Shown here in pieces: positions 323-2,897 of a stretch of 64,000 bases of DNA. The first letter of the stretch is position 1; each line of letters begins with the position of its first letter. The translations under genes were made by a program, and so were the position numbers. This DNA is from Phymorhynchus buccinoides (taxonomy: Eukaryota > Mollusca > Gastropoda > Neogastropoda > Raphitomidae): NCBI GenBank assembly GCA_017654935.2, contig CM065690.1:24099251-24163250 (forward strand). The letters are read 5' to 3'. A model generated the notes under the pieces. The model saw only the letters and a list, made by a program, of their open reading frames with translations, was not told where the DNA came from and did not search any database.

Positions 323-2897
323 CTGCAATCAAGAAAGACATTGATCACCCTTAAAAGATATTCAGCAAAAGAGATGCTACTTAAAATATTTCTCATCAAC
401 TACATACTGATCAACAACTATACCAATCGGTTATCCGCCATCAGAGCCAAATCAAATGAGTAAATATCAAGAGTGAGCTCTCATAATCGATAGCTTTCTT
501 TAGTACAATTACCAGTTTTCATTATTTCGGGTCAATAAAGTAAACTGCATCTGCTCTAAATTACATCTTTGTCAAATTTGCAACATTAATTTGGAGAGTT
601 CCTTCCCATCTTCTTGCCTCACTATTTCAATTTGTGTTTAACCCAACTTCTATCGAGGCATACCAGTTTGTTCTGTGTTGTGTGTTGTTTAAATGCAACA
701 TGTTGAAGACTAGAAGGCTACACCATTCTTGACTTAATGTTGATCTATCTGTACATAATTCTCTCCACCACTGTTGTTGTGTAGTGTGTGGGTGATGGTC
801 TTATAGACAAACCTGGCACATCCTTTATTGAGGATGAAGTCATGTTTGTTTCCCTGTGGCTGTTGCTTATACTTTGCTAGGCAATGGTGCCGTAAATAAC
901 TATGCTGGAGGGAGTTAATTTGAAGAGTTCTCTCCCTTCATTCATTTTATCATCTCCTCTCCTAGCCTCACTATTCAAATTTTCGTTCTACCCAACATTA
1001 GTATGTTTATCCCCCCCCCCCCCCTCCCCTCTTTTTTATTAAAAGGAAATTGTGCTTTTATTTTCAATAGTAAATATTAATATATTTTTCAGACTATAAT
1101 GCATACCTTAGTATAAGGCGCACCCCAAAAATGTTACACAAATTTTAGATTTTAAAAATTATATTGTCTTACTACAAAATCAATTATATACTGTGGCGGT
1201 ATCATAGCCGATGAGGTTTAACCGAGGCGTGGTTACCGCTACACCTATCTGTATTATTAAAAAATCGGGACTTTACTGGTTTCGCACTGCCTCCGGGCAT
1301 TGCCTCCAGTATCGTTCCCACCATCTTTGTATTTACAAATGTCCCATATGTGTCTGTTTCAGACCGAGAGGACGTAAAAGACAATTTTTCTTTTCTTTTT
1401 TTGATTCACTATAAAATCAACCCTATTATGCGGCACAGGGTTCTCAGTCCGGGCAAAAAGTATACTCCAAAAAATATGGTAACTGTAAGGTGGATAATTT
1501 AAACCTTTAATTACAGTTGCACTTTTATATTATGCAGATAGATAAATCTGTAAATAACACTTTAAACAAACATGGGGTAACACTTTTCTTGCATTGTATT
1601 TATAACCACTAAAAGAATGGAAAATTAGAAAAAGATGAAAGCTTACCAAACAGGGTGATTTTGAGTATTCTGCTACACTGGATGGCAAAAGTCAAATCAG
1701 AACTGTCGAAGATTGTTATCAGATCCCCATCTAAACAACAAAGAAATGAAAATCATCGACCATTAAAGTGCAGTACATGTAACTATTTTACAAGTTAAAA
1801 CAAAAAAAGGAAAAAAGGAAAAAGAACAACAAAAGGCAAACCTGACCTTCTTTAGTAACATCAACAGCAAAGGTTGCCACTCACTAATAATATGCAAGAA
1901 GCTATACCTATTGGCCACTGCAACTAGGGTTATTAACGCCCTTGACGACAAGAGTTAAGCCTTTGTTGGTCAGTATCCAAAAAAGCATTCACTCTTGCAA
2001 AGGCAGTCATTCAGTGGCCTCAAATAGGGTTATTGGCGAGAGTTATTCCCTTGTTTGGTCAGTACTCAAGCATCTTCCCCCACCCACCAAGGGCATTCAC
2101 TCTTGCAAAAGGTGTTCTTTGCAGTGGCCAATAGCTAAAGAGCAAAAAAAATGAAGAAAGAAATTTGGAATTGGATGGAAAGAAAGAAAGCAAGAAAGAA
2201 AAAATAAATGAAAAAACCAACAAAAAGAAAGAAAGAAAGTAAGCAAAGGAGTAAGCTTAAACAACAACAAAAATACACAAGCCGACAAGGTTAGCATTTT
2301 TACTTACAGCAGTACCATTTTCAGCTATAACTATACATGCAGAAAAACAAGCACGTACACACATACAAACAAAGTTAAAGACTGGAGAAAAAACCCCATA
2401 AAAAGTTACGAATGCAGAATAGCACAATCATCTATCTTACTAAGTAAATTACAGAACTGAAATAAAACCTTTACTCTAAGGCTGGGTTCACATTTGATTA
2501 GACAAGTAAGTTTCGTACGGAAAACCCATAATAAATAGAAGAAAGAAGGATAAAAGTTTACGCATATGGGGAAATTCGGACTCGTGCGCAAATCTTTTCC
2601 CTTCTTTGTTTCACTTATTTATGGATTGCGCACGGGTTTCTGCATGGAATATCAGGACCGCTTATGTGTGTACACGGCCTTAAACTACGACCTACTGTAC
2701 TCACCTTCATCCTTGTACTTGATGACAATGTCGTCCTGAGTGGACAGCTTCCCGCGGTACACTCTCTGCATCATCAGCACCAGTTCGTCGTAGGTGATGT
2801 CCTCGTTGTGGATGGGGATTCGCCGGATGTCATCGCCCAGCTGAACTTTGATGATCAGCTTCCCACTCAGGTCCATGGAGGGACCAGCGTTCTCCAT
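182..2897 (-). CDS. TFG: TFG homologue (Trk-fused gene protein), 5' part, three coding exons
   Basis: TFG is a cytoplasmic scaffold at ER exit sites that organises COPII carriers; it has an N-terminal PB1 domain, a coiled coil and a long P/Q-rich tail. The three exons join in phase (1/1/1) to about 140 residues. Residues 9-93 form the PB1 domain, including the near-invariant stretch [20 protein letters not shown] and, in exon 2, [13 protein letters not shown] followed by [10 protein letters not shown]. Residues about 100-125 ([20 protein letters not shown]) start the coiled coil. All junctions have GT/AG. The Met at 2897 is chosen because it lies directly before the conserved [13 protein letters not shown]; a second Met seven residues later is a possible alternative. 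An acceptor-like CAG just upstream (about 2910) suggests a 5'UTR intron. The P/Q-rich tail lies beyond the left edge. The identification rests on recalled family sequence. Confidence 0.93.
323..1067. other. TFG intron 2, left part; no gene seen
   Basis: AT-rich sequence with a poly-C/T tract near 1010-1030. No coding exon was seen. Two passages (595-680 and 915-1000) resemble each other, both with a CTCACTATT...CCCAAC pattern, and may be repeat copies. Confidence 0.5.
1068..1496. mobile_element. Palindromic MITE (ends TACCGTATTTTTCGG type) interrupted by a SINE
   Basis: The left part (1068-1183, CAGACTATAA and AAGGCGCACCCC) and the right part (1409-1496, CTCAGTCCGGGCAAAAAGTAT) correspond to the two ends of the intact 170-bp element at 45418-45592. 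The U4-headed SINE at 1184-1408 sits between them. Confidence 0.75.
1184..1408 (+). mobile_element. U4 snRNA-headed SINE, full-length copy
   Basis: Flanked by near-identical 12-bp direct repeats (CTACAAAATCAA at 1172-1183 and CTATAAAATCAA at 1409-1420), as expected for a retrotransposed element. The first about 55 nt follow U4 snRNA from near its first nucleotide: GTATCATAGCCGATGAGG, then TTTAACCGAGGCGTGG and TTACCGCTA. I count about 41 of 50 positions matching vertebrate U4 as I remember it. The body is unrelated to U4. The 3' part ends in GAGAGGACGTAAAAG and a T-rich tail. A 5'-truncated relative lies at 6899-7075. Confidence 0.8.
1647..1730 (-). CDS. TFG: TFG coding exon 2
   Basis: 84 nt, acceptor TTTAG before 1730 and donor GTAAGC after 1647. 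It encodes the acidic end of PB1 ([13 protein letters not shown]) and SRILKITLF. The phase is 1 at both ends. Confidence 0.92.
2477..2683. mobile_element. Fold-back MITE-like repeat
   Basis: The ends TAAGGCTGGGTTCACA and (reverse complement of the right end) TAAGGCCGTGTACACA are inverted and similar. No transposase is present. The element sits in TFG intron 1 or just downstream of exon 1. No convincing target duplication was seen. Confidence 0.55.
2705..2897 (-). CDS. TFG: TFG coding exon 1
   Basis: 193 nt encoding residues 1-64 plus one base of the next codon; the donor is GTGAGT at 2704. It holds the first two thirds of the PB1 domain, including the basic cluster (KLIIK, RR). Confidence 0.93.

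Follow-up and report, generated by a model that had tools for sequence, protein, structure and literature searches.

A putative U4 snRNA-headed family of short interspersed elements with a U2-related body in the gastropod Phymorhynchus buccinoides

Introduction

Short interspersed elements (SINEs) with heads derived from the U1 or U2 small nuclear RNA (snRNA) were reportedly described from crocodilians by Kojima in 2015 as SINEU, and for SINEU-1 the same work is said to report that sequence from U1 or U2 was added repeatedly at the 5′ end. The element considered here lies at positions 1184-1407 of a 64,000-nt stretch of contig CM065690.1 (positions 24,099,251 to 24,163,250, forward strand) of the neogastropod Phymorhynchus buccinoides (assembly GCA_017654935.2); this whole stretch is referred to as the window. 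We are highly confident that the element is a SINE, i.e., a non-autonomous retroposon moved by a long interspersed element (LINE), which is composed of the 5′ stem-loop of U4, a linker, a piece of U2, a LINE-like tail and a short simple repeat, and which probably gained its head by a template switch.

Compared with SINEU as reportedly described, the element belongs with these SINEs in kind, but with a U4 head. An snRNA-derived head is common to both, and the recurrent 5′ addition of snRNA sequence reported for SINEU resembles the capture of U4 by a U2-containing element that is proposed below. In contrast to the reported heads from U1 or U2 in crocodilians, the head is related to U4 here and the U2 part, a 3′ stem-loop, is located inside the body; a further difference concerns the copy number, as the head pattern occurs approximately 21,000 times. 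Since the head matches the U4 of the host itself, an origin independent of the crocodilian SINEU elements is likely.

Passages of PMC5753468 and PMC4455052 name SINE1/7SL, SINE2/tRNA, SINE3/5S and SINEU as SINE classes, and snRNA-derived SINEs are mentioned in passages of PMC8010984 and PMC7245038. With the first three classes (as named in the relevant part of PMC5753468) the element shares a head from a small RNA gene, a LINE-type tail and target site duplications (TSDs), but its head is from U4 and no classical pair of A and B boxes was found. Retropseudogenes of snRNAs, such as those of U6 (PMC4476161), likewise arise when a LINE reverse-transcribes an snRNA, whereas the snRNA part is here the fixed head of a multi-copy composite with a LINE-type tail. 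Utopia LINEs, according to a section of PMC4640811, also link a LINE to U2 snRNA genes; however, they insert into these genes, while U2 sequence is found here within a dispersed mobile element. Neither a U4-headed SINE nor the combination of U4, U2 and a LINE-like tail was found among the matches listed from the open-licence papers searched, Repbase and Dfam lying outside this search, and the available parts of PMC13174262, PMC7397244, PMC7922186 and PMC10886601 contained nothing on U4 SINEs. As stated in a passage of PMC7245038, SINE heads are thought to be retained for their internal RNA polymerase III (Pol III) promoters.

Results

An earlier note on this DNA, made from its letters alone, had placed an element at 1184..1408 between 12-bp repeats. 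Its extent was correct to within one base, and the repeats are indeed direct ones, with a length of 13 nt of which 12 are identical; a match as good as this one was seen at 13 of 3,949 random window positions. The segments of this copy and two related insertions of the window are as follows (all on the plus strand):

1184-1407, plus: retroposon copy, flanked by 13-nt TSDs (12/13 identical)
1171..1183, plus: 5′ TSD ACTACAAAATCAA, 12/13 match to 1408-1420
1184..1192, plus: variable 5′ extension TTATATACT, replacing U4 nt 1-11, heterogeneous among copies
1193..1241, plus: U4-derived head, equivalent to nt 12-60 of host U4 (the 5′ stem-loop, including the k-turn sequence), by cmscan (RF00015) and a 45/49 match to the host gene in L034
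1242..1275, plus: linker, conserved in 30 aligned copies, 3.47% mismatch in 28 of them
1276..1322, plus: body, derived from the U2 snRNA 3′ stem-loop (IV), by comparison of the old form in L033 with host U2 and by shuffles
1323..1334, plus: spacer, from the alignment of copies
1335..1407, plus: LINE-like 3′ tail with GAGAGGACGT and a T-rich end, common to 40137-40217 and L083-L088
1352..1364, plus: tail hairpin GTCTG-TTT-CAGAC, stem pairs compared across variants
1408..1420, plus: 3′ TSD ACTATAAAATCAA, pairing with 1171-1183
6899..7074 (about), plus: second copy, 5′-truncated within the U4 head, with TSDs at 6888-6898 and 7075-7085 (10/11)
40137..40217, plus: 5′-truncated LINE-like 3′ end, the same tail alone, with 13-nt TSDs CAGTGACCAAAGC at 40124-40136 and 40218-40230

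When the region 1100-1500 was searched by cmscan with E-value reporting, the U4 family RF00015 matched at 1182-1242 with 33.9 bits (E 3.7e-6), the pairing of the 5′ stem-loop being intact in the alignment and the rest of U4 missing. Aligned to a human U4 sequence, the window element outscored all 500 shuffles. For the host itself, 41 candidates were scored, which yielded five full-length RF00015 matches of 114-116 bits on one and the same contig; these are taken as the host U4 genes and start with AGCTTTGCGCAGTGGCGGTACCATAGCC. The majority head of the SINE equals nt 12-60 of host U4 at 46 of 49 positions, including GGTACCATAGCC, where human U4 differs, and the head of the window copy reaches 45 of 49 against the gene in L034. 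Judged by these matches, the SINE head is derived from the U4 of its own host, i.e., from a small cellular RNA gene and, more specifically, from a spliceosomal snRNA. The element does not have the make-up of a U4 snRNA gene, as it contains nt 12-60 only, with nt 1-11 replaced and everything past nt 60 gone. In the cmscan alignment, both stretches that we take to be those of U4 pairing with U6 are lost or altered in the head, and the sequence of what is presumably its k-turn is kept.

Between the TSD and the conserved head, the copies contain an A/T-rich variable extension of approximately 5-35 nt, usually in place of U4 nt 1-11. Letters similar to AAGCTAYRCACA and resembling U4 nt 1-11 were retained in four of 30 aligned copies (L003, L007, L022, and L026), which suggests that the founder element started at the 5′ end of U4. 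The U4-derived head claimed by the earlier note is thus borne out by an RF00015 match, though one under the curated cut-off for the window copy; of its further claim that the element starts near the start of U4 and follows it for about 55 nt, the U4 match stood (nt 12-60), and the 5′ end proved not to be a clean one of U4.

Two further observations concern U4 sequences elsewhere in the genome. A multi-copy repeat with U4 nt 2 to approximately 66 and near-identical flanks occurs on several contigs (L044, L047, L050, L053, and L054) and would be another, separate spread of a 5′ part of U4. Additionally, some full-length U4 genes have a SINE or LINE-like tail at a distance of about 90 bp from their 3′ end, oriented towards the gene (L031 1364-1407; L032 and L035 1310-1412).

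The junction of U4 head and body is not confined to the window. In the 2.12-Gb assembly holding the window, which was used for all genome searches, a 28-base pattern of this junction had 9,238 exact matches (4,675 + 4,563; reversed control 0). A 31-mer of the U4 head was found 21,240 times with up to three mismatches (control 0), a count into which U4 genes and pseudogenes as well as segmental duplicates also enter. Scoring of the best 40 of 1,951 candidates resulted in at least 44 matches, three of them short and 41 near full length, the latter comprising the window copy and 40 others at 93-96% identity; this list is biased towards those copies that are most closely related to the one in the window. 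Among 20 sampled junction sites (20 of the first 21 listed, with 8059440 omitted), the U4 head was present upstream in all 20 when up to seven errors in 29 nt were allowed, and full body and tail were present in 18, at 84.6-96.5% identity. What the earlier note had described as a family is therefore one rather than a single chimera, and the head is not missing from its genomic copies. The second window copy is 86% identical to the first and has the same U4-body junction; since it is truncated inside the head, it gave no U4 match by cmscan, and 95 of 500 shuffles scored as well against human U4.

Of 50 copies, 37 had TSDs by the scoring used, compared with a mean of 2.9 and a maximum of 5 in 20 trials with mismatched flanks. 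For this test, one copy per distinct head with both flanks long enough was used (50 copies from 44 loci); with the slightly different cut of the TSD listing, the value was 36 of 50. The family thus consists of many dispersed short copies with TSDs, as is characteristic of SINEs. Across 28 copies (28 of the 30 aligned rows, as L006 and L012 are segmental duplicates of L005 and L011 and were excluded), the mismatch amounted to 1.97% in the head, 2.19% in the tail and 4.86% in the U2 body. The lower variation of head and tail relative to the U2 body hints at selection keeping these two parts, and it could also reflect subfamily structure. The predicted RNA fold of the window element was better than that of 200 of 200 shuffles (z -4.9). 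Pattern scans of collections of viral contigs and genome contigs yielded zero copies. The same applies to a 50-kb genome sample (ten 5-kb pieces) at E<=0.01, which is compatible with head patterns being spaced by roughly 100 kb on average.

At some loci, SINE and tail insertions are adjacent to each other and each is bounded by the same short sequence (L002 1080-1920, L014 1266-1907, and L043 1079-1560); in L002, this sequence is CAATAAAACGCAAC, as if a duplicated target had been hit repeatedly. In such a target-site cluster in L043, two SINE copies are followed by a bare copy of U4 nt 1-60 (1501-1566), which the machinery that moves the SINE may have produced as a by-product.

The middle part of the element is related to a second snRNA. 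In an alignment test with strict gaps against U2, 44 of 2,000 shuffles were as good as the window copy and 2 of 2,000 as good as the second copy. An older relative, CTGGTATTGCAGTACCTCCAGGATCGTTCCAC, was identified at L033 2217-2341 and also in L034, 0.6 kb from a U4 gene. None of 2,000 shuffles matched the human U2 3′ stem-loop as well as this old form, which in L033 equals host U2 at 30 of 32 positions, with the first 26 nt exact, and ends near the mature 3′ end of U2. A second old copy, in L015, equals host U2 at 23 of 23 positions, and the old form, as CGGGACTTTNCTGGTATTGCAGTACC, occurs exactly 816 times in the genome (control 0). Compared with it, the present body has acquired point mutations and contains a near-duplication of 13 nt (GCACTGCCTCC / GCATTGCCTCC). 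On this comparison, the SINE body is a descendant of the U2 snRNA 3′ stem-loop, which is nearly intact in the older form. A mere chance likeness to U2 was dropped as an explanation after the older form had been found, the earliest tests (cmscan, loose gaps) having been negative. TATCTGT is common to the linker and the 5′ half of U2 (by eye); the 5′ half of U2 is not claimed as source of the linker. The two-part chimera of U4 and a LINE-like tail proposed by the earlier note is consequently supported but incomplete, its middle being a piece of U2.

Full-length U2-like copies are present on many contigs (all 46 scored matches were over the cut-off; L071-L082), and several of the 12 copies that were read have common flanks. 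In addition, one SINE copy (L130 / L115) has a piece of about 26 nt from the 5′ end of U2 immediately behind its simple-repeat tail.

Relatives of the body without a U4 head were also found. A 29-mer of the body occurs exactly 5,046 times in the genome, and in the first 28.5 Mb of contig C1 the exact junction is present at the right distance in 12 of 54 such 29-mers. Twenty body loci without exact junction were chosen from 42, close pairs being omitted: nine had a mutated or partly deleted U4 head (eight recognized by script, L090 by eye), and 11 were headless. Among the latter, L092, L095, and L097 have one common upstream flank and L100 shares the downstream flank of L097; because of these common flanks, the four loci look like parts of another repeat. 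Several other headless loci begin near the U4-body junction. The same part of C1 contains six old U2 sites; no exact junction adjoined any of them, the nearest being 62.8 kb away, in a test that is blind to mutated heads. Since headless relatives exist, the U4 head was probably added to an already existing U2-containing SINE. The simplest history would start with a headless U2-containing SINE, followed by the 13-nt duplication and the U4 head, and then by a large burst; the relative order of duplication and head gain is one that we infer.

A headless SINE body is located in a tandem array of approximately 148 bp in L025 (2660-3211), and four matches of the old U2 type on C3 are spaced by 93-107 bp (G000:C3:64959970-64960288). 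Considering this array and this spacing, parts of the SINE may have turned into satellites.

The 3′ part of the element is shared with other insertions. A search with the tail at 40137-40217 resulted in at least 40 matches (best 40 of 848 candidates scored). Six tail copies were read further upstream and contain a common long, A/T-rich stretch similar to a 3′ untranslated region, which is broken off at differing points, and several LINE-like tail copies end in TTCC repeats. As breaking off at different points resembles LINE copies, the SINE tail looks like one common to a 5′-truncated LINE-like family (L083-L088), in agreement with the LINE-like 3′ tail of the earlier note. The 4-bp stem of the tail hairpin is intact in nine of nine variants with two-sided changes, which were hand-picked from 34 listed, with an exchange of U-A and C-G at two pairs. 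Without selection, 20 of the 27 distinct tails up to L082 had all four stem pairs, as did 28 of 43 over all loci. Tail structure is reportedly read by the LINE enzyme in the eel work of Kajikawa and Okada, and two-sided changes as seen here would be expected for such a structure. This eel work is referenced in a passage of PMC5753468.

Two features of the window lie apart from these insertions. On the minus strand between 48385 and 62760, T-rich 13-base matches recur about every 1.1 kb (14 matches), hinting at a long tandem array. A fragment of a transposase-like protein with DDE_3 (PF13358) similarity is encoded at 6039-6590 on the minus strand (35.2 bits).

Discussion

The composition of the element can be explained by a succession of steps. 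The reverse transcriptase of a LINE would recognize the tail hairpin, prime at the nicked target and copy the RNA; that such target-primed reverse transcription is behind the insertions is supported by the TSDs, the 5′ truncation and the repeat tails. In an ancestral event, the enzyme would have reached the 5′ end of the RNA of a U2-containing SINE and then have jumped to a U4 RNA at about nt 60. After this jump, the 5′ stem-loop of U4 would have been copied and would have formed the new head, and the headed form would subsequently have been amplified. The most speculative step is that the U4 head might keep the RNA made and stable, either via the A-box-like TAGCCGATGAGG or via the k-turn, which in genuine U4 binds 15.5K/Prp31. 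The heterogeneity of the 5′ extensions would be consistent with a start site that is set from within; alternatively, the extensions could be filler made at insertion.

Several observations weigh against this reading. With respect to the head, the score of the window copy (33.9) is below the RF00015 gathering score of 46, no match was obtained when the whole window was searched by cmscan at gathering thresholds, and U4 nt 1-11 are unrecognizable in most copies. With respect to the body, cmscan detects no U2 in the window copy, the loose-gap U2 test was non-significant (the two window bodies were equalled by 411 and 496 of 500 shuffles, respectively), and even the old form reaches just 12.3 bits (E 1.9), a low score that is due to the shortness of the piece. 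That the old U2 sites are headless rests on few loci (L033/L034 and L015). As to the tail, no reverse transcriptase was recognized by eye in frame translations of the 0.8-0.9 kb preceding each of six tails or of a further 3.5 kb preceding one of them. Seven of the 27 distinct tails up to L082, and 15 of 43 over all loci, have a broken hairpin, the seven owing to a changed base or a deletion, as expected of decaying copies. Regarding transcription, the head contains an exact A-box-like TRGYNNANNNGG (by the A-box consensus), which is also found in 47 of 2,000 shuffles; there is no tRNA-type B box at the usual distance from it. The first TTTT of the element sits at its very end, and when its first 175 nt were shuffled, 617 of 2,000 shuffles were without any TTTT as well. 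An internal A-box-like promoter of the SINE head is suggestive at best.

The template switch has one competitor of some weight, a fusion at the DNA level, in which a truncated U4 retropseudogene received the insertion of a U2-containing SINE, either next to it or within it, and transcripts reading through this locus founded the headed family without any switch of template. The genome does contain U4 pseudogenes that end near nt 60-70 (L041-L044, L060 and others), and the copy of U4 nt 1-60 within the SINE cluster of L043 also fits such an event. The junction is, however, located approximately where headless copies begin according to their TSDs (the old form in L033 and L096; two loci, by eye), which is expected for a switch at the 5′ end of an RNA, and we consider a DNA-level fusion possible but rather unlikely.

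The likeness of the body to U2 might be due to convergence rather than descent. The window copy taken alone is a weak match, as apparent from the shuffles, the cmscan result and the loose-gap test given above. This stands in contrast to the older relative with its 26 exact positions, to the complete agreement of L015, and to the 816 exact genomic copies of a form that no shuffle equalled, so that convergence appears very improbable.

Still harder to maintain is an ordinary tRNA-headed SINE that resembles U4 by chance. It is true that TAGCCGATGAGG fits the tRNA A-box consensus, but the majority head shares 46 of 49 positions with the host U4 gene, GGTACCATAGCC included, and lacks a B box at the usual spacing. 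ARAGORN found no tRNA in the window, and the tRNA head was rejected.

A one-off U4 pseudogene beside an unrelated repeat would be conceivable in a genome that does contain truncated U4 pseudogenes, but the same junction recurs in the second window copy, and with 9,238 exact junctions (control 0) and a head at 20 of 20 sampled sites this explanation has practically no probability left.

U4 and U2 are RNA polymerase II genes with promoters outside of the transcribed sequence, and for this reason the thousands of U4-headed copies raise the question of what a SINE head must supply. As a tentative and, in our own estimation, rather doubtful idea, the SINE lineage would first have captured the 3′ stem-loop of U2 and then the 5′ stem-loop of U4, and its success after the latter would be due to the k-turn, the 15.5K/Prp31 site, giving a stable nuclear ribonucleoprotein near the LINE machinery. 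If this was true, the asset gained would be a small nuclear ribonucleoprotein instead of a classical Pol III promoter with A and B boxes. Since headless U2-containing and U4-headed forms survive side by side in one genome, the successive capture of snRNAs by this SINE lineage would be datable and the gain following the capture of U4 measurable.

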